This document shows positions 254 through 61,748 of a stretch of DNA of 64,000 bases, piece by piece. The DNA lies in assembly GCA_024684055.1 (NCBI GenBank), contig JAIKXN010000253.1, positions 1 to 64,000 on the forward strand, given 5' to 3'. The position numbers and the translations under genes were made by a program. Source of the DNA: Lachnospiraceae bacterium (GTDB lineage Bacteria; Bacillota; Clostridia; Lachnospirales; Lachnospiraceae). The notes below the pieces were generated by a model. That model saw nothing but the letters and a program-made list of their open reading frames with translations. It was not told the origin of the DNA and searched no databases. Numbering within the stretch: position 1 is the first letter of the stretch; every line of letters begins with the position of its first letter.

Positions 254-1945
254 ATGTCGACATTTTATCTTGTTTGTTTTATAATTCCCATACTTTTTCT
301 TTTATGGTATATAAGCCTGGGCGAGCAGCACAGCACCCAGCTGACACTGCTTTTCTGCTCGGTTCTCGTATCAAATGCCGGATTTTACATCATTTCGGTT
401 GCTCAGAATCTTCCGCAGGCTTATATCGGCATAAAAATGTCGTATGTGGGAGGTGTTTTCCTGCCGCTGATTATGTTTCTTATAATATGTGACATCTGTC
501 ATGTACATATTCCGAAATTTGTGATGACATTAATGTACTGTGTTCAGTTTGTTATGTTCGGACTGGTCTGTACAATCGGCATTCTGCCTGTTTTTTATGA
601 AAGTGTTGAAATAGTAAATAACGGATTCTATGTTACGCTCGCAAAAGAATACGGTCCTCTTCATATTGTTCCGCAGATTGCTCAGTTTATTTATCTTCTC
701 GCGGGAATGGCAATTGCGGCTGTATCCATCGGAAGAAAAACGGTTGTAAGTTTTAAAACCGTAATGAGTTTTCTTTTTGCGATTATCATATGTATTTCCG
801 TTTATGCATTTGAAAGAATTCTGAGTCTTGATATTGAGTTTGTTCCTCTCGCTTTCATCATTGAAACAATTCTTGCAGTTATTCCTTTAATCAAACGAAA
901 TACCTATTCGATAAACGCAAATGCGCATGATATCTTCAATGATTATACTCAGGTCGGATATGTGACTTTTGACAGAAAACTCAGATACATGGGATGCGAT
1001 GACAAAGCTCTTAAAATCTTCCCGGAACTGTTAAAATACAGACTCGAGTATGTTCTTAAAGACAAGGGTTCTGACTTCACGAATGTTTTCCTTTCGGTGC
1101 TTAAAGGCTGCCAGAAAATAAAGGGAAGAAAAATACTCGATACAAATGTATTTCCTCTCGGAGACAAATACTATGAATACCGTATTGCGCCGATTTTAAA
1201 AGGCCACAGAAGAGTAGGATACATTGTTGAAATAAACGATGTAACGTTAAGAGAGATATACAGTAAGGCTCTTGAAGATGAGGTCAGCAAAAAGACCGAA
1301 AAAATCCGCGTCATGAAAGACAAGACAATGCTCGGAATGGCGCAGATGGTTGAATCGAGAGACTTAAGTACGGGCGGTCATATCAGACGTACTTCGATAG
1401 TTGTGGACATTCTTGCGAAAGAACTCTTAAAGAGAGATATGGGCTTTGACGAGAAGTTCCTTAAAATGGTTATTCGAAGCGCACCCATGCACGACCTCGG
1501 AAAGATAGCCGTAGAAGACAAAGTATTGAGAAAACAGGGTAAATTTACGCCGGAAGAATATAACGAGATGAAAAAGCATGCTGCAGCCGGTGCTGAAATA
1601 GTAAGCAAAATCCTTACCGGTATCGAAGATGAGGAATTTGTCAATATTGCGATAAACGTTGCCCATTATCATCACGAAAAATACAACGGAAGCGGATATC
1701 CCGAAGGACTTTCGGGCGAAGATATCCCGGTTGAGGCAAGAATCATGGCGTATGCGGATGTATTCGATGCGCTTGTGTCAAAGAGATGTTACAAGGAAGC
1801 ATTTGATTACGACAAGGCTTTCGGCATTATAGAAGAATCCGTGGGAACCCATTTCGATCCCGCACTTTTCGATGCGTTCATGGCATGTCGCAGTGAACTT
1901 GAGGAATTCTATTCGTCAACATCGGTTCTTCTCGAGCAGCAGTAG
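254..1945 (+). CDS. 7TM N-terminal sensor, PAS-like region and HD-GYP domain (c-di-GMP phosphodiesterase candidate)
   Basis: Hydrophobic N-terminus, then HDLGKIAVEDKVL, HYHHEKYNGSGYPEGL and DVFDALVSKRCYK motifs of HD-GYP proteins. Confidence 0.9.
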   Translation: MSTFYLVCFIIPILFLLWYISLGEQHSTQLTLLFCSVLVSNAGFYIISVAQNLPQAYIGIKMSYVGGVFLPLIMFLIICDICHVHIPKFVMTLMYCVQFVMFGLVCTIGILPVFYESVEIVNNGFYVTLAKEYGPLHIVPQIAQFIYLLAGMAIAAVSIGRKTVVSFKTVMSFLFAIIICISVYAFERILSLDIEFVPLAFIIETILAVIPLIKRNTYSINANAHDIFNDYTQVGYVTFDRKLRYMGCDDKALKIFPELLKYRLEYVLKDKGSDFTNVFLSVLKGCQKIKGRKILDTNVFPLGDKYYEYRIAPILKGHRRVGYIVEINDVTLREIYSKALEDEVSKKTEKIRVMKDKTMLGMAQMVESRDLSTGGHIRRTSIVVDILAKELLKRDMGFDEKFLKMVIRSAPMHDLGKIAVEDKVLRKQGKFTPEEYNEMKKHAAAGAEIVSKILTGIEDEEFVNIAINVAHYHHEKYNGSGYPEGLSGEDIPVEARIMAYADVFDALVSKRCYKEAFDYDKAFGIIEESVGTHFDPALFDAFMACRSELEEFYSSTSVLLEQQ

Positions 1946-2059
1946 ACCAAATTTGAACAGAATGTCTCTTCGGCAGCACAAATGTCGAACTTCAGTGAAT
2001 TAAATCCTGAACAGCAGTGAAAATTTAAACGGCTGAAATTTAAACCTGAACAGCAGTAA
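1907..2059 (+). repeat. Gene-tail repeat array: copies of the HD-GYP gene's last codons plus stop
   Basis: ...LEQQ* (TAG 1943-1945), a degenerate copy near 1973-1980, PEQQ* (TGA 2018-2020), PEQQ* (TAA 2057-2059). The last two units are exactly 39 bp apart and in the gene frame. Confidence 0.75.
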
Positions 2060-12922: not shown

Positions 12923-14027
12923 TAAGTCTGTCTTTTAAGAGAGTTACAAGACGGTCCGCTATCATTTGGCGGCCGTTTTTGTTTGGCGTGATTCCGTCAT
13001 CTTCAAGATAATTGTCGGCATTGTCTTCGTTAATAAGAACGCCGCTGTAGAGATCGATATATGAAACACCGAAGTAATCGGTAAGACGTCTTGCGGCATT
13101 GAATGTTTCTTCAATCGTTCCGTATCCTGTATCGTACATTGCACAGGATACTTTTTTGTTATCATCGTCAATCGCATAGCAGAATGCGGGAGAAACGAAA
13201 ACGTACTGTGTATTCGGATTATCGTAATTGAAAAGATAAACCGAAGTATATACGGCGCCGAGAAGGGTCTGAAGGTTTTCGGTCTGGGCATCCGCACTGT
13301 TTTCGTTAAAATTGATGGGCTGGTGACCTGCACGGTAATCATGACCGTCATAGCAGAACATAACAACGTCTATATTTGAAATATCAAGACCTTCGAGAGT
13401 AGAGATAACTTCCTCGTATCTTTCGATATCATATTTGTCTTTGTCGAGATAAAGCAGAGCTTCTTTCTGCTTCGAAAAATCTTTCCATTTCAGATTGAAT
13501 GCAAGCCAGAACAAAGTGAAATAGTCTTCGGGACATTCCGAAGGCGAAAGTTCTTCGTTGTTGAAAGCATTAAGGTATGAACCGGGAAGGCTGCAGTTGT
13601 ATATTTCAACCTTGTCGGACACTCCTTTTTCAAACAGATCGATTATTCCCGAACCGTCCGAAATGCCTTCGGAATAGGAATCGTTTCCGAGAATGAGAAC
13701 ATTCGTGACGCCGTCGTCCGAATCTTTTGCGATAAGCGAAGGAGGCATCAGAATAATATTGTCTTTTGTATCGAGCTTTATGCTTTCAATGTCTTCTTCC
13801 GTGATTATGTAGGGCTTTCCTTTATTCCATACCTGAATACGCAGTATGATAACGATAACGCATATTATCAGAAGAACCGGAAGCGCACATGCGATTATTC
13901 TCGGATAATTCGGAACGCGTTTTTTCTTTTTATGAGAGTGTCCCCCGCTGTTTCCCGAAGGTCTGTGAGGATTTGAACTTCTCTGCGAAGCTGAGTTTCT
14001 GTTTCTGTCTGAATTGTTATTTGCCAT
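12909..14027 (-). CDS. Membrane-anchored SGNH-like hydrolase
   Basis: Ser/Asn-rich N-terminus, TM, NVLILGNDSYSEG, VVMFCYDGHD, DDGITPNKNGRQMIADRL. Internal ATG at 14027 preferred. Confidence 0.7.
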   Translation of the reverse strand: MANNNSDRNRNSASQRSSNPHRPSGNSGGHSHKKKKRVPNYPRIIACALPVLLIICVIVIILRIQVWNKGKPYIITEEDIESIKLDTKDNIILMPPSLIAKDSDDGVTNVLILGNDSYSEGISDGSGIIDLFEKGVSDKVEIYNCSLPGSYLNAFNNEELSPSECPEDYFTLFWLAFNLKWKDFSKQKEALLYLDKDKYDIERYEEVISTLEGLDISNIDVVMFCYDGHDYRAGHQPINFNENSADAQTENLQTLLGAVYTSVYLFNYDNPNTQYVFVSPAFCYAIDDDNKKVSCAMYDTGYGTIEETFNAARRLTDYFGVSYIDLYSGVLINEDNADNYLEDDGITPNKNGRQMIADRLVTLLKDRLTESK

Positions 14028-14277: not shown

Positions 14278-17200
14278 ATGAAGAAAAACAATATTTTTGA
14301 TACTGAAATTCAGATGGTCGATCTTGAAAGCATGGATAACATGGAAGTATCCTTTGACGAGACGAGCGAACCCAATCCCATGCTGGCTGACGATGTCAGA
14401 CTGAACATGAAGGAGACACAGGTTATTTCCGCAGAAGAAATAGAAAAAGTAATGAAAGAAAACACTGTGGAAGATCTGCCCGATTCGGGAGAAACAATCG
14501 TTATTCCGAGCCGTGTGATCAAAAAGGCGGTTATGGATATCCCGACTGATGCAGGATATTCAAATGCTTCGAATGATGCATACAAAAACAAAACCGGATT
14601 CGAAAACGATGAATTCGGCGAAACAGTTACGTTTGACACTCGGGTCATAAACGCGGCATATGAGGAAAAGAAAAATCCCAACATGCTCGAACCCGATGAA
14701 TCTTATGATTTTGAGGACGATATTGATGAACCGGCAAGAAAGAAAGTTCATCATGCAAAAGAAAAGAGCGAAAAAGAATTACGAGCCGAAGAAGAAAGAC
14801 AGTTAAGAAAAGAAGCCAGAGCCGAAGCAAGAGCAGAAGAGAGAGAGGCAAAAGCAGAGGCGAGAGCTGAAGAAAAAATGGCAAGAGCAGAAGCAAAGGC
14901 AGAAGCAGCAGCCGAAGCAAAGGAAGCAAAAATCGCCGCAAGAGCAGAAGCCAAAGAACTTAAAGCAGAGGCAGCAGCCGAAGCAAGAGAAGCGAAACTT
15001 GCCGCAAGAGCAGAAGAAAAAGAACTTAAAGCGGAAGCGGCAGCAGAAGCGAGAGAATCCAAACTTGCCGCAAGAGCAGAAGAAAAAGAACACAAAGCCG
15101 CAGCGGCAGCAGAAGCAAAAACTGCCGCAAAACAGGTGAATCCGGCAGCAAAGCAGGACAATCCGGCTGCTAAACAGGGTAATCCTGCCGCCAAGCAGGC
15201 AAATCCTGCTGCAAAGACCGGAGCGAAGCCTGCGGTTAAAAACGGAGCAAAACCTGCAGTCAAAACAGGAGCAAAACCTGCAGTCAAAACAGGAGCAAAA
15301 CCTGTTTCACAAAACGGTGCGGCTACCGCAGCAAGGCAGGGAAATCCCGCAGCCAAACCTGCAGCCAAACCCGCAGCGGCTAAGCCTGCAGGAACAGTGG
15401 CAAACAAACCGGTTCAGCATGCAAAGAGTTCTCCTGTTTCTCCTGCGAAAACAGAATTTCATCCTAAGGGAGAACAGCGTCCCAGGGTTCCCGAAATGCC
15501 GGTCAAGGTTGTTCCTCCTCAGGAAAAGAAACCCGCAGCTCCCTCACATGTTATCCCCGACATGGGAATGACACAGGAAATACCCGTGGAAAACATGAAT
15601 ACGGAAGCTTTGGATACAGCATCAGTTAATGAAAATATTCAGGAAAACATTCACAACGTACAGAATGTTTCGAGAGAAAAAGTCGTACACAAAAAATCAA
15701 AGAAGAAATCACGTACCGCATTCGGTATCGTTGAAATCTGCGGCGTTGCAATAGCTCTTCTTCTTGTGATCCTACTTGGTGTTCTCGGCGTAAAACTTAT
15801 AGAAAAAGGCAAACAGAAAAACAATGTGGCCCAGTTTGCAAGCATAGGTGCCCTTTATTCCGAAATGGATTCAATCGGAAACGAGGGAATTCTGGCAATC
15901 GGAGAGAAAGCATCGATAAGTTCCGTTAACGTTCCCGAAGAAACCGAAAGTACGGAAGAAGGCACGGAAGAAACAGACAACAATCAGAATGTTTCGCCCG
16001 TATCGGTTAATTTCCTTTCAATAGAAAAAGATTTAAAGATTAAATTCCTTGATAAAAACACCGGAAAACTTATAAGCGGAATTCAGTTTGAAGTAACTGC
16101 AAAAGGCCCTAAAGGAGACGATTTCAAATGGACCGACTCAGATATGGACGGCATGATCTATGTAGATAAGCTTCAGCCCGGTAATTATGAAGTTAAAGTA
16201 CTTTCGGTACCGCCTTATGAATTCCCTGATACCGCGACAACGGTTAAAGTACAGGATACGATCGTATATCAGGTTATCAATGTTATCGACGAGGCACAGG
16301 ATATGAGCCAGGTCGATCTTGCCAAGGAAGAAAACAACGGCAAGGAAGTCGATGAAGGAAACAAACTTCAGGATACCGTAGAGTTTGTTGAATCCACGGC
16401 GACTCCCATTGAGGGACAGGACGGATACGTAAAGATTGATAAAAGCAAGATAAAGGATCCCGCAACGTTACAGTCGGCATATCTCTGGGGCGGATTCAGA
16501 AGAGTTGATTCCATAACACTGCTCGTCGGAGAAATGACGGTTCTCAATGTTCCTCACGAAGCCAATCAGACTCTTATGTTTTCAAGCGACAACCCCGATG
16601 TTGTGACGGTATCTCCAAACGGAGACTTAACCGCAATAAATGAAGGTGTTGCCAATGTTACCGCTTCGATTCTTGATTCAGAGCAGACTATCATTTCGAA
16701 CATAGTTTACAATGTCACGGTTAAAAGAAGCAATTCAGGGCGTATACTGGTAATCGACGGACCGAACACGGTTGAAATCGGAAAAGAGATCGAACTGATT
16801 GCAACGGGTTTGGTTACCTGGTCAAGCAGCGACAACAATATAGCTGTAATTGACGATAGAGGCGTGGTAAAAGGAATTTCCGAAGGTACGGTAACGATTA
16901 CCGCGGTTTCTGCGGAAGATCCGAGTGTTAAAGCCGAATTTAAGATAACGGTTAAAAAAGGCGCCGTTCCCGTAAATGAACTGATTCTTTCAAGTTACAG
17001 CGAAACAATGAAGGTGGGCGACAAAGTTAAGATCAAAGTAACGCTTTCACCCGAAGGAGCGGATAACCCCGGAATCACATGGTCTTCGGATAATACGAAT
17101 GTCGCAGTGGTAGACAAAGGAACCATTACGGCTGTGGGAAGCGGAAATGCTACAATACTTGCACAGACAAATGACGGAAGAGGCATTTGTGCGGCTGTTA

Positions 17201-26477: not shown

Positions 26478-28367
26478 ATGGGTACAGAAATGGACAACGA
26501 TCAGATCGAACAACTGAAGAAAGAGCTTGAAGAAGCCAAAAAGACGAACATGGAACTCTCCGGCAGAATTATCGAACTTACGGATGAGAAAGCCGAGATA
26601 GAAGAAAATCTTTCACGTATCAAAAACAGCAGGGTCTACAAATTAAGCAAGCCTTTAAGATACGTCAGATCTCAGATAAAAAGAGTGACACAGTACGGAA
26701 GCGTTTCGGCTGTCAATCAGAAGATCAAGAGTAAAAACAGACTTAAGAAAAGGTATAAGGAACTCGGAACACTTTCTTTTCCTGATGCAGAAGAAAGAAG
26801 CAGACAGGAGAATACGGTTTTCGCATCGAATACCTGTATTTCGATTCTGGTCCCGCTTTACAACACACCGGAAAATTTCCTTCGCGAAATGATCGATTCC
26901 GTGGTAACGCAGACATACAAAAACTGGGAACTCTGCCTTGCGGACGGTTCCGATGCGGAACATGAATATGTTTCCGAAATCTGTCGCGGTTATTCAGAGA
27001 AGGATTCGAGGATCAAATATCAGAAACTTGAAAAGAACGAGGGAATATCAGGCAATACCAACGAGTGTTACAAGATGGCAACGGGTGAATACATAGGTCT
27101 TTTCGATCATGATGATGTACTTCATCCCTCGGCACTTTTTAAATACATGGAAGCGATAGAAGAAGGCGCGGATTATATTTACTGCGATGAGGCTACGTTT
27201 ACCGACGGTGATTTGAACAAAATGATCACCGTTCATTTCAAGCCGGATTTTGCAATCGACAATTTGCGTGCCAATAATTATATCTGCCATTTCAGTGTAT
27301 TCAAAAAGGATTTGCTTAAAGAAACGGCACTTTTCAGAACCGAGTATGACGGAAGCCAGGATCATGACATGATCTTGAGGCTCACATCGCTTGCCAAAAA
27401 AGTTGTTCACGTTTCGGGCATATATTATTATTGGAGAGCACATGCGCTCAGTGTGGCCGCTAATATCAATGCAAAGACCTATGCGATCGACGCGGCAAAG
27501 AGAGCCGTTGCGGATCATCTGAAAAACTCCGGGATTTACAATACCGGGATCACGTCTTCGAGAGCTTTCGAAACCATTTTCCGTTTAAGGTATGAAGTGG
27601 TCGGAAAGCCTCTTGTTTCGATAATAATCAACGACGATAACGAAGAGTGCATTAATGCTGTAAATAAATGGAATACATACGATAATATCGAGATCATTAA
27701 AGAATCCGATTATATAAAAGAAAAGAATGCAAATAAGTTTTCAGTAAGAAACATACTTGCCGAAAAGGCAAACGGCGAGATCCTTCTGTTCCTTGACGGA
27801 AGTGTGTCCGTAAGATCGGAAGAATTTGTAAAAGAACTTGTTTCGATCGCGCAAAGAGAAGACGTCGGGGCAGCAGGTGCAAAGTTGATCGATTCAAAAG
27901 GAAAGATTGCTCATGCCGGGATTGTGACGGGGATCGGCGCGGACAAGGCAGCAGGTCTTATCCATTTCGGATTTGATACAAAATACATCGGATACATGGG
28001 TAAGCTTTGTTACATTCAGGATGTGTCCGCAGTTACGGGTGATGCGCTTGCCGTCAGAAAAGAAGTATTTTTAAAAGCGGGCGGTTTTGACGAAAGGTAT
28101 GCAGCTGCTTTTTCGGATATGGCATTCTGCCTTAAATTGCGAAGGAGCGGATATCTTAACGTATTCAACCCTTATGCTGAAGGCGTAAGCGACAAGTATC
28201 AGATGCTTCTTGGTGCAAATTCGGAAAAAATGACTGAGAAAGAAATTGAGTATTATAAAAAGGATCTCGAAAAATTCAGGGCAGATTTTAAGAAGGAACT
28301 TGAAGAAACCGATCCTTATTACAATTCATTCTTAACAAAAGAAACACTTGATTATTCGATTTGCTGA
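26478..28367 (+). CDS. Glycosyltransferase family 2 (two GT2-like regions)
   Basis: CISILVPLYNTPENFLREMIDSVVTQTYKNWELCLADGSD, GLFDHDDVLHPSALF; second half KLIDSKGKIAHAGIV...FDERYAAAFSDMAFCLKLRRSGY. Confidence 0.9.
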   Translation: MGTEMDNDQIEQLKKELEEAKKTNMELSGRIIELTDEKAEIEENLSRIKNSRVYKLSKPLRYVRSQIKRVTQYGSVSAVNQKIKSKNRLKKRYKELGTLSFPDAEERSRQENTVFASNTCISILVPLYNTPENFLREMIDSVVTQTYKNWELCLADGSDAEHEYVSEICRGYSEKDSRIKYQKLEKNEGISGNTNECYKMATGEYIGLFDHDDVLHPSALFKYMEAIEEGADYIYCDEATFTDGDLNKMITVHFKPDFAIDNLRANNYICHFSVFKKDLLKETALFRTEYDGSQDHDMILRLTSLAKKVVHVSGIYYYWRAHALSVAANINAKTYAIDAAKRAVADHLKNSGIYNTGITSSRAFETIFRLRYEVVGKPLVSIIINDDNEECINAVNKWNTYDNIEIIKESDYIKEKNANKFSVRNILAEKANGEILLFLDGSVSVRSEEFVKELVSIAQREDVGAAGAKLIDSKGKIAHAGIVTGIGADKAAGLIHFGFDTKYIGYMGKLCYIQDVSAVTGDALAVRKEVFLKAGGFDERYAAAFSDMAFCLKLRRSGYLNVFNPYAEGVSDKYQMLLGANSEKMTEKEIEYYKKDLEKFRADFKKELEETDPYYNSFLTKETLDYSIC

Positions 28368-28438
28368 CAAAGAAATATCCGATGATTCGACATCCGATCA
28401 TGGAACGCTCAATTATTCAGTATGCTGACAAGGAAATA
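28341..28438 (+). repeat. Gene-tail repeat: copies of the glycosyltransferase 3' end including stop
   Basis: 28341-28377 vs 28402-28438: 29/37 identical (ETLDYSIC* vs GTLNYSVC*), with a degenerate middle copy at 28381. Confidence 0.75.
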
Positions 28439-39656: not shown

Positions 39657-40460
39657 ATGAATTTGATTTCGATTGCAAACGAAACGATCAGAATATATGA
39701 AAAAGGCGAATATGAAGTAAACGGGAAAAAGGTTTTCTTTCCGGAAGGAGATTACAGCGGAGTATTCGTTTTTTCGCCGGAAATGGGTGAAGAGGTGCTT
39801 AAGGAAGATTTAATTATTCCCGCAAATCCTTCCATGTGCAAAATAAGTGTCATTAACAGCGATTCTTTTGCTGCAGCCCGAAGATTCGACAAGGGACTTG
39901 TAATGAATTTTGCGAACGCACACAATCCGGGAGGAGGATTCAGAATGGGTGCGACGGCGCAGGAAGAAGCATTGTGCCGCTGCAGTACGCTTTATGCCTC
40001 CATCACATCAAAGACCGCAGCGCAGATGTACGTCTACAACAATACACATGTAAGCAGTGTAGAATCCGATTATATGCTGTTTTCGAAAGATGTGCTGGTA
40101 TTCAGGGATGAACATTTAACTTTGCTTGAGGAGCCTTTTAAAACTGCGGTTGTGACGATCCCGGCACCGAACAGATACGGAGCCGCAGCTCTCGCATCTT
40201 CTGAAAAGATAAAGTATACTTTCGAAAGAAGAATAGCAATAATGCTAAAAGAAGCCGCAAAACTCGGCTACAGACAGCTTGTTCTAGGGGCCTGGGGCTG
40301 CGGAGCTTTCGGAAACAAACCCGGTGATGTGGCAAAATATTTCAGGAAAGCGATTATGGATGACAAACTCGGATACTTCTTTGATGAGATATGCTTCGCC
40401 ATTTACGGCAAAGAGGACGGAAGAAATATCACTGCCTTCAGGGAAGTGTTTAAAGATTGA
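39657..40460 (+). CDS. TIGR02452-type microbial poly(ADP-ribose) glycohydrolase-like macrodomain protein
   Basis: FANAHNPGGGFRMGATAQEEALCRCSTLY matches the PARG GGG-X7-QEE signature. Confidence 0.85.
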   Translation: MNLISIANETIRIYEKGEYEVNGKKVFFPEGDYSGVFVFSPEMGEEVLKEDLIIPANPSMCKISVINSDSFAAARRFDKGLVMNFANAHNPGGGFRMGATAQEEALCRCSTLYASITSKTAAQMYVYNNTHVSSVESDYMLFSKDVLVFRDEHLTLLEEPFKTAVVTIPAPNRYGAAALASSEKIKYTFERRIAIMLKEAAKLGYRQLVLGAWGCGAFGNKPGDVAKYFRKAIMDDKLGYFFDEICFAIYGKEDGRNITAFREVFKD

Positions 40461-40497
40461 ATATCAGTAATTGTTTTATGAGTTTAAGGATTGATTA
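40443..40497 (+). repeat. Gene-tail repeat: second copy of the PARG-like gene's last codons and stop
   Basis: GTGTTTAAAGATTGAATAT (40446) vs GAGTTTAAGGATTGATTAT (40480); 34 bp spacing, FKD* in both. Confidence 0.55.
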
Positions 40498-57270: not shown

Positions 57271-59970
57271 ATGAGCAAAAAGAGAATGAAAAAAACATTG
57301 CAGACAATTACAACGCTCCTTTTGACGGCAATTGTTGTTTTCAGTACTTTCGGTATGGACTTGCCCGTACTTGCAAAGGGTATTGATGACGATGCTGTAA
57401 TTGTTGAAGACGAAGACACTGTTGATGTCGACGTTGATGCTGAAGAAGACATCGATGCAGATGTTGAAGAAGACATCGACGCAGATGTTGACGAAGATGT
57501 CGACGCAGATGTTGACGAAGATGTCGACGCAGACGTTGATGAAAACGTTGATGCAGATGTTGACGAAGATGTCGAAGCAGACGTTGACGAAGATGTCGAA
57601 GCAGACGTTGACGAAAACGCAGATGTTGATGAAGACATCGAAGCAGAACCCGAGATTTCTTCTGAAAAAGTATTTGTTACTGAAGAAGAAGACGGAATTG
57701 ATGCAGGTCTTGGATTTTCTGCAGAAGCACATTTTATTTCTTCCGAAGAAGACTTTTTTGACGGAGAAGAAATTGATGCGGATGAACTTTTGTACAGTTA
57801 TATTGATGCCAATATTTCTGACGAAGATTCAGTAGATCCTCGCTATGCATCCTCACTTGTCGGAGACAGACTTCCGGCTTCCAGCAAACCTCTTTACAAT
57901 GCATTTAAGCAGGCAACATCAGATATCGCCAAAGGAAAAAGGTCCAGCACAACAGCGACAATTAATCCTCAGGCTCTGGGCTGGAATAGGAAGTATACTG
58001 CTGCAGAACTTGGCGTTTCAAGTCTGATTTCGGGATATTCGGTTTCTGAGGAAGCCATGAGAGCTCTCGATAAGAAAATCGGATTCGACAAATTTAATCC
58101 CAGAAATATAGTATTGGCCGTAATGGAAGATTGTCCTTACGAGAGATACTGGATGGGACTTTCCTGGAATTATGTAGGTTTAAGCGGAGTTTACTACAGA
58201 GTTACTTCTGACAAAAATTATATTTATTTAGACTTTGGTACTGAACTTGGAATTAAGATGACTCCTTCGAGAGATTTCGCAGGTTCAGAATCCTTTACTG
58301 TGGATACCAGCAAAACAAAGGCTGTAAATTCTGCAATTTCTAAAGCAAATACCATAGTTAAAGATGCTAAAAGCAAAACTGACTTACAGAAGATTACGTA
58401 TTACAAGGATCAGATTTGTGCACTCAATACATATAACCATGCAGTAGTAAACTGGCCTTCAAGCATGTACGGCAATCCCTGGCAGCTTGTTTATGTATTT
58501 GACGGAGATCCCAATACAAATGTTGTTTGTGAAGGATACAGTAAAGCTTTTATGTATCTTTGCGAAAAAACAAACTTCAGCGATTCGGAAATAGCATGTT
58601 ACACTGTAAGCGGAGAGGTTTATTTCCCTTCAAACCACGGTCCGCATATGTGGAATATTATTCACTGGAATAACAATAAGAATTATCTTGTTGATGTTAC
58701 AAACGTTGACGGCGGAAATCCCCCTGATCTGTTCTTTGCAACTCCTACAAGCGGATCTGTTGCAAGCGGTTATACTTTCAAGATGGGTTCAGCTAGCGCA
58801 AGATACGAATATGATGAGGATACCCTTGCTTTATACACAACAAAACAGCTTACTATCGGTAAGAAATCAAGCGGCAAACTTTCAAATATTTACGTAAATT
58901 ACGATCTTGATATCCTTTCAAATAAAAGCATTCCATTTACGGTTATAAGAGAAGGCGGATCAGACAACACCAAGTTCAAGGTTGCTTCGATTAAAGATGC
59001 TAACGGAAACGCAACAATGGCCGGAGACTATTCGACCAAATATCAGAAAGATAATATAATTAAATTAACTTTCTATTCAGCAGGAACTTACACAATTAAG
59101 TTCACCGCAAAAGATACAGATGGTACAACCAAATCTCAGAGCATTACAGTAACGGTTAAGAAGGGTAAAGTAGACAGAGCAAAAGTTGAGAAGTTTGTAA
59201 GCAGATTCTATACGATCATTCTTGGCAGAGATCCGGAGAAAGCCGGACTTAAATCCTGGACAGATGCACTTTGCAACGGAAAAATGACAGGATGTGATGT
59301 TGCTTTAGGATTCATAAGAAGTGAAGAATTTCTCTTAAAGCAGACATCCAACGGAACATATGTTAAGAAGTTATACAAAGCATTCTTTAACAGAGCTGCT
59401 GATGATGCAGGATATAAGGATTGGACAAACCAGCTTAAGAAGGGTGCATCCAGAGAACAGGTTCTTGCAGGATTTGTTAACTCTGCAGAATTCAAGAAAC
59501 TTTGTACATCTTACGGAATCAGACAGGGTTATCTTGATTATACAAAGCTTCCTCCTTTGAGCAACTGGAATGCTTCAAAGGCAAGTGATGCAAAGATTAA
59601 AGCATATGTTAAGAGATTATATACCGTAGCACTTGGCAGAACTCCCAGCACAGCAGAAGTTAATTCCTGGACAAAGACAATCAAGAACGGTAAAGATGCT
59701 AACGGCAACAAGTATAATGCAGCTCAGGTAGCAAGCCGCGGATTCTTTGAATCACCTGAATATACCAAGAAGAAGAAATCTGATGAAGCATTCATCAAAG
59801 ATGCTTACAAGGCTATGTTCGGAAGAGATGCTGACGCTGAAGGATTAAAGCACTGGAAAACTCAGCTTAAGAACGGTATGCCCAGAAGAACCATGCTTGA
59901 AGAAGGCTTCGGCAACTCAACAGAGTTTATTAAACTTATGGAATCCTACGGATTTGTACGTGTACCTTAG
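57271..59970 (+). CDS. Secreted transglutaminase-like protein with acidic Asp/Val repeat and two DUF4214 domains
   Basis: Signal peptide; (DVDEDVDA)n; VVCEGYSKAFMYL...HMWNIIHW...YLVDVTN catalytic-type triad; FVSRFYTIILGRDPEKAGLKSW etc. Confidence 0.88.
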   Translation: MSKKRMKKTLQTITTLLLTAIVVFSTFGMDLPVLAKGIDDDAVIVEDEDTVDVDVDAEEDIDADVEEDIDADVDEDVDADVDEDVDADVDENVDADVDEDVEADVDEDVEADVDENADVDEDIEAEPEISSEKVFVTEEEDGIDAGLGFSAEAHFISSEEDFFDGEEIDADELLYSYIDANISDEDSVDPRYASSLVGDRLPASSKPLYNAFKQATSDIAKGKRSSTTATINPQALGWNRKYTAAELGVSSLISGYSVSEEAMRALDKKIGFDKFNPRNIVLAVMEDCPYERYWMGLSWNYVGLSGVYYRVTSDKNYIYLDFGTELGIKMTPSRDFAGSESFTVDTSKTKAVNSAISKANTIVKDAKSKTDLQKITYYKDQICALNTYNHAVVNWPSSMYGNPWQLVYVFDGDPNTNVVCEGYSKAFMYLCEKTNFSDSEIACYTVSGEVYFPSNHGPHMWNIIHWNNNKNYLVDVTNVDGGNPPDLFFATPTSGSVASGYTFKMGSASARYEYDEDTLALYTTKQLTIGKKSSGKLSNIYVNYDLDILSNKSIPFTVIREGGSDNTKFKVASIKDANGNATMAGDYSTKYQKDNIIKLTFYSAGTYTIKFTAKDTDGTTKSQSITVTVKKGKVDRAKVEKFVSRFYTIILGRDPEKAGLKSWTDALCNGKMTGCDVALGFIRSEEFLLKQTSNGTYVKKLYKAFFNRAADDAGYKDWTNQLKKGASREQVLAGFVNSAEFKKLCTSYGIRQGYLDYTKLPPLSNWNASKASDAKIKAYVKRLYTVALGRTPSTAEVNSWTKTIKNGKDANGNKYNAAQVASRGFFESPEYTKKKKSDEAFIKDAYKAMFGRDADAEGLKHWKTQLKNGMPRRTMLEEGFGNSTEFIKLMESYGFVRVP
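57415..57648 (+). repeat. Acidic coding repeat, about 24-bp unit (GACGCAGATGTTGACGAAGATGTC)
   Basis: Repeated DVDADVDE/DVEADVDE codons with near-identical DNA. Confidence 0.9.
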
Positions 59971-60689: not shown

Positions 60690-60845
60690 TTTTCTTCCGG
60701 CACGCATAGGATTGTTGTGGAATTCTATTTATCTTTCTGCATGCGTCGGATTGTTAAGAAAGTCTGCTTATCTTTCGGCACGCATAGGATTGTCGGAAAA
60801 TTTTGCTTATCTCTCAGCGCGCATCGGATTGTTGAGGAAGTCTTC
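60690..60845 (-). repeat. Gene-tail repeat array: 4 x 39 bp; unit 0 is the fcl C-terminus, three units lie beyond its stop
   Basis: In fcl frame: EDFLNNPMRAER* / AKFSDNPMRAER* / ADFLNNPTHAER* / IEFHNNPMRAGRK. GGATTGT occurs at 60709, 60748, 60787, 60826. Confidence 0.92.
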
Positions 60846-61748
60846 GTAAGCAAGTTTGATTCCGTCTTCGAGTTCCGTTTTGTATGTCCAGCCGAGCGCT
60901 GCGGCCTTTGAAACATCAAGGAGTTTTCTCGGAGTTCCGTTGGGCTTTGAGGGATCCCAGAGAATTTCTCCTGTATAACCGATAACTTTGGCAACAAGTG
61001 CCGTGAGTTCCTTAATTGTGATTTCTTTGCCGGTTCCGGCATTTACCGTTTCGTCTCCCGAATAATTATTCATTAAGAATACGCAGAGGTCTGCAAGATC
61101 GTCAACATATAAGAACTCGCGAAGCGGTGAACCGTCGCCCCAGCAGGTTACCTGCTTTTCGTCGTTTTCCTTTGCTTCGTGGAAACGTCTTATAAGTGCG
61201 GGAAGAACATGTGAATGCATAGGATGGTAATTATCGTTCGGACCGTAAAGGTTTGTGGGCATTACCGAGATGTAATCCGTGTTATACTGCTTGTTTAAGA
61301 ATTCGCAGTACTTTAATCCGGATATTTTAGCAAGGGCATAAGCCTCGTTTGTCTTTTCGAGTTCTGAAGTTAAAAGGCAGTCCTCTTTCATGGGCTGCGG
61401 CGCAAGTCTGGGATAAATGCATGAGGAACCGAGGAATTCGAGTTTTTTGCATCCGTTTTCCCATGCTGAATGAATTACATTCATTTCAAGAGTCATGTTG
61501 TAGTACATGAAATCCGCAAGTGCGTTCTGATTGGCGTAAATGCCGCCGACTTTTGCTGCTGCGAGGAAAACATATTCGGGCTTTTCTTTTGCGAAAAACT
61601 CTTCAACTGCAGCCTGACGACAGAGATCAAGTTCCGCATGGGTTCTTGTAATAATATTTTCGTATCCCTGCTTCTTAAGTTCTCTGACAATTGCCGAGCC
61701 TACCATTCCGTTGTGACCGGCAACATATATTTTTGAATTCTTTTCCAT
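60807..61748 (-). CDS. fcl: GDP-L-fucose synthase
   Basis: YVAGHNGMVGSAIVRELKKQGY, GSSCIYPRLAPQPMKED, NLYGPNDNYHPMHSHVLPALIRRFHEAK. Confidence 0.95.
   Translation of the reverse strand: MEKNSKIYVAGHNGMVGSAIVRELKKQGYENIITRTHAELDLCRQAAVEEFFAKEKPEYVFLAAAKVGGIYANQNALADFMYYNMTLEMNVIHSAWENGCKKLEFLGSSCIYPRLAPQPMKEDCLLTSELEKTNEAYALAKISGLKYCEFLNKQYNTDYISVMPTNLYGPNDNYHPMHSHVLPALIRRFHEAKENDEKQVTCWGDGSPLREFLYVDDLADLCVFLMNNYSGDETVNAGTGKEITIKELTALVAKVIGYTGEILWDPSKPNGTPRKLLDVSKAAALGWTYKTELEDGIKLAYEDFLNNPMRAER

Follow-up and report, generated by a model that had tools for sequence, protein, structure and literature searches.

Gene tails repeated behind their own stop codons

The window (the whole stretch of 64,000 nt analysed here, from a Lachnospiraceae bacterium) carries near its start an HD-GYP gene encoding 563 aa on the forward strand (254–1945), an open reading frame with Pfam matches to HisKA_7TM and HD_5, i.e. 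a 7TM sensor joined to an HD_5 domain. The gene ends in LEQQ-TAG (CTC GAG CAG CAG TAG; stop codon at 1943–1945), and this tail, CTCGAGCAGCAGTAG (1931–1945, forward strand), is found again twice in the 122 bp between the stop codon and a strong bidirectional intrinsic terminator that stands right behind the array (2066–2097; identified by terminator scan, inverted repeat and fold). Both copies lie on the same strand, read PEQQ-stop and are in frame with the gene: CCTGAACAGCAGTGA (2006–2020; CCT GAA CAG CAG TGA, stop at 2018–2020) follows 75 bp past the stop of the gene, and CCTGAACAGCAGTAA (2045–2059; CCT GAA CAG CAG TAA, stop at 2057–2059) exactly 39 bp beyond the preceding copy. Around them, a 21-nt block at 1998–2018 is 90% identical to the block at 2037–2057.

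The tail and its in-frame repetition with TAG, TGA and TAA are thus present as claimed in the initial annotation, and shuffled sequences do not commonly yield such matches. The best tandem self-match in the 122 bp after the stop has a score of 15, whereas no score above 12 came out of 4000 dinucleotide shuffles (0/4000 reached 15). At least one copy of the last nine bases (one mismatch allowed) with an in-frame stop was seen in 2 of 20 000 shuffles, and two copies in none of them (0/20 000). Chance similarity is therefore excluded for the two good copies. The further copy that had been proposed between gene and array, CTTCGGCAGCAC (1968–1979, forward strand), matches at 8 of 12 positions, a level not told from chance, and carries no weight alone; of the spacings of 37, 38 and 39 bp that had been read from it, the 39 bp stands, whereas 37 and 38 rest solely on this doubtful match. 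The spacer does contain the nested TGAAA(A)TTTAAAC repeat. Repeated tandem duplication of the gene's 3′ end, in more than one event, is supported. The spacer can also be divided into mutually similar pieces of ~20 bp, with a poor alignment (43% mean identity). A DNA search with the spacer revealed no other real copy elsewhere in the genome.

A head-to-tail unit well above ~9 bp is found not only at 2006–2059 but also at about 60690–60809 on the reverse strand, behind an fcl-type (GDP-L-fucose synthase-like) epimerase gene (60807–61748, reverse strand; open reading frame, Pfam Epimerase; stop at 60807). There, sequence inspection and repeat scan give three 39-bp tandem copies (60690–60806) of the gene's tail, EDFLNNPMRAER-stop, the last one without the stop, followed by a terminator. 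The 39-bp spacing noted earlier as common to fcl and the last two HD-GYP stops is correct, and fcl is the stronger case. That the copies at both genes are in frame follows from the distances of 39 and 75 bp, which are by coincidence multiples of three. The presence of two tail arrays in a single window prompted a systematic test of gene ends. Two further cases were seen within the window, both on the forward strand: the gene ending at 28367 has a 61-bp tandem copy of its tail (28351–28438), which keeps its TGA and is out of frame, and the gene ending at 40460 has a weak short copy of its own (GTTTAAAGATTGA / GTTTAAGGATTGA; 40446–40494). Other features of the window include a SAM riboswitch (Rfam RF00162; 43505–43604, forward strand) and long in-frame repeats within two coding sequences, one rich in Ala, Glu and Lys (14811–15377) and one rich in Asp, Val and Glu near the N-terminus of an 899-aa protein (57424–57647).

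Tail arrays across the genome and in relatives

Stretches adding up to 1.07 Mb, or roughly one third of the genome, were scanned by aligning, with gaps, a 60-nt segment around each stop codon to the next 215 nt (cut-off score ≥18), and tails swapped between genes served as controls. In a first sample, 6 of 303 genes were followed by a tail copy at a level that no swapped-tail control attained. For the full 1.07 Mb we found tail copies at 19 of 816 gene ends, compared to 0.67 expected from swapped tails; genes were called alike for all sets as simple longest open reading frames, so that some small genes may be wrong. As the HD-GYP array itself scores under the gapped threshold, 19 is a lower bound. 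Together with the shuffles, these controls rule out chance as the source of the tail copies, and the arrays are a property of the genome and not of the HD-GYP gene.

The units measure ~30–100 bp, with two to five copies per array, and vary between genes, each matching the tail of its own gene, e.g. 96 bp (L124), ~46 bp (L117 at 10440) and 35 bp (L110). The stop codon lies inside the repeated unit of the gene-end arrays. Among the clearest are five copies of a 42-bp unit (L117:13274–13406, at 13283) and four copies of a 58-bp unit (L123:10983–11166), and in both of them each copy ends in TGA. Across the sampled arrays we found neither a unit common to different arrays nor a dispersed copy.

The same scan detected tail copies at 4 of 385 gene ends in G009, the nearest congener sampled, at 1 of 381 in the other congeners (5/766 for all congeners) and at none of 357 in a wider set of 58 non-redundant loci, most of which belong to other Clostridia and a few to other phyla. 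The difference between this genome and all controls is significant (19/816 versus 5/1123; p = 0.0003), that between this genome and G009 alone is not (p = 0.18). A mirror scan at gene starts of the same genome gave 3 of 752, compared to the 19 of 816 at gene ends (p = 0.001). Tandem repeats within coding sequence have about equal density here and in the relatives, and therefore the excess sits in the non-coding 3′ flanks. No clear array was found in the divergent spacers of the scanned sample, the single candidate being a 17-bp palindrome (GTTAGACATAACTAACC) that resembles a repressor operator and occurs twice, 50 bp apart (L152:6103–6169).

The closest HD-GYP homologue, in G009, encodes a 64% identical protein and is followed by the same desulfoferrodoxin-type gene; it ends in EEFYSTQQ-stop, with a short spacer to its terminator and no tail copies. 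The only fcl homologue compared (G014) has the identical terminal peptide EDFLNNPMRAER and likewise no tail copies. Judging from these two homologues, the HD-GYP and fcl arrays appear confined to this lineage. Separately, we observed in G009 a repeat of ~45 bp (AAAATGGACC..G.ACTCCGTCCCC.AGGTCCACTTT) with an internal inverted repeat, often in tandem pairs (several sites in L200; L131:1233–1304; L199:3107–3184).

Frame, stop codons and codon positions of the copies

The initial annotation attached importance to the frame of the copies and held that base changes had occurred at HD-GYP while a stop was kept. Neither point is supported across the sampled genome. The distance from the stop of the gene to the aligned stop of the copy, determined for 36 copies, is spread over the three phases (14/13/9). 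The aligned triplet is still a stop codon in 28 of the 36 copies, compared to ~65–68% (0.65–0.68) expected under a neutral model drawn from the copies' own decay, which at first and second positions runs to ~13% per site (p = 0.14); after correction by eye of two misaligned copies, retention is 30/36 and nominally above expectation (p = 0.03). Over the 36 copies, then, no frame bias is detectable and no clear selection on stops, and the succession of TAG, TGA and TAA at HD-GYP is best explained by two substitutions that happened to keep a stop while the copies decayed.

Differences between gene and copy amount to 14.5, 12.5 and 23.2% at first, second and third codon positions, respectively. 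Coding selection on the copies was considered as the cause of this third-position excess and rejected, as the excess is removed when copies are compared with each other (17.2, 16.4 and 20.5%; p = 0.25 for position 3). The excess is thus confined to the comparison of gene with copy, so that the gene alone appears constrained and the copies free to change anywhere.

Origin of the arrays and related systems

We consider it likely, with a probability of about 0.8, that the arrays are small, selectively neutral minisatellites that arose by duplications across the stop codon and then drifted. A unit of ~30–100 bp would start within the last codons of the gene and end in the spacer behind. Its origin is probably replication slippage, possibly between short matches. 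A duplication of this kind would leave the original frame and stop intact and be tolerated, because the coding sequence ahead of it is unaltered; within a gene, such an event would usually be harmful, and over a start it would add a false start site. Downstream copies could then drift freely and be duplicated again. The copies with their gene-specific units, their overrepresentation in this genome and at the 3′ ends of genes and the codon-position pattern, on which this account builds, are seen directly. We infer that tolerance, rather than a mutational hot spot, is the reason for the 3′ bias. Neutrality gives no reason for the roughly five times higher frequency of arrays here (19/816) than in the controls (5/1123). 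Loss of a repair gene was considered as the cause of the excess and rejected for the four examined: mutS and polA are present in the genome, and so are a recJ and an SbcD match above the cut-off. In one relative, the recJ match is split into two adjacent frames, possibly by a frameshift or an assembly error (G004:C39:35358–36862).

An unlikely alternative is that the region behind stop codons is a true duplication hot spot in this lineage, where duplications arise rather than merely survive and genes continually extend a series of copies of their own tails. After the release of ribosomes at the stop codon, the untranslated growing transcript might promote R-loops or fork stalling and, through these, tandem duplications. 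Consistent with this, 3′ ends of genes are affected six times more often than 5′ ends, divergent spacers have no clear array, and both terminator-adjacent arrays inspected stand before the terminator and are therefore probably transcribed. However, selection against duplications at starts yields the same bias, and the data do not separate the two. There is very little to recommend the idea that the copies are maintained as backup stop codons, or that readthrough turns them into alternative protein tails. The in-frame copies at HD-GYP and fcl, and the HD-GYP stops that differ yet stay stops, would fit it, but the 36 copies have no frame bias and near-neutral stop retention, vary freely among themselves, and are missing behind the homologues examined in relatives (HD-GYP in G009, fcl in G014).

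We regard it as equally improbable that strain alleles were placed in tandem during assembly of this metagenome-assembled genome. The assembly consists of 264 contigs, and gene-copy differences rich in third positions are what strain alleles would show; yet a misassembly would neither favour 3′ over 5′ ends nor spare coding interiors, the copies contain indels and diverge by up to 30%, with copy-copy differences lacking a clear third-position bias, and congeners handled alike have few arrays. Least credible of all is a dispersed mobile or structured RNA element inserted behind genes. Several sites are affected in one genome, and G009 does carry a dispersed spacer repeat of ~45 bp, but the units here are unrelated between genes in both sequence and structure and each fits the tail of its own gene, the HD-GYP spacer has no other genomic copy, and no Rfam match was found at the array.

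Among known systems, the neutral minisatellites favoured here are closest to the variable number tandem repeats (VNTRs) of Yersinia pestis with a stop codon inside the unit, of which ten were reported at stops and six at starts (PMC3689786). In that study, VNTRs overlapping a stop are argued to affect the open reading frame little and to matter less than those at starts (PMC3689786). The arrays share with them the tandem units containing the stop, the higher number at stops than at starts and a sequence of their own at each locus (PMC3689786), but they have longer units (~30–100 bp, as opposed to mostly 7–21 bp) and old, diverged copies. We thus classify the arrays as minisatellites of the Y. 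pestis stop-overlapping kind, longer, older and unusually many; as the analysis covered one strain of the species, we do not class them as VNTRs in the strict sense, which requires copy numbers that vary between strains. MIRUs are one family of related sequence over many loci. In this respect the arrays differ, as their units are gene-specific, each locus having its own unit from the tail of the adjacent gene, and no sequence family is shared between the loci; the likeness to the MIRU-VNTRs of Mycobacterium tuberculosis lies in tandem units of the 40–100-bp range in intergenic spacers (PMC2734929). The intergenic TAACTGA repeats of Beggiatoaceae are likewise direct spacer repeats that happen to include stop triplets, but consist of one fixed 7-bp motif throughout the genome (PMC4679880), whereas no common motif is found here. 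Beyond the stop-overlapping VNTRs, literature searches did not reveal a description of gene-tail arrays.

The arrays also call for caution, as in-frame tail copies with different stop codons can give the impression of a function while being neutral. A 3′ bias of mutational rather than selective origin would point to a connection between translation termination and genome instability. Taken together, the arrays represent a natural record of small tandem duplications where selection permits their survival. Each of them sets a gene tail under constraint beside copies that are free of it, and rates of duplication and decay could thus be read from a single genome.
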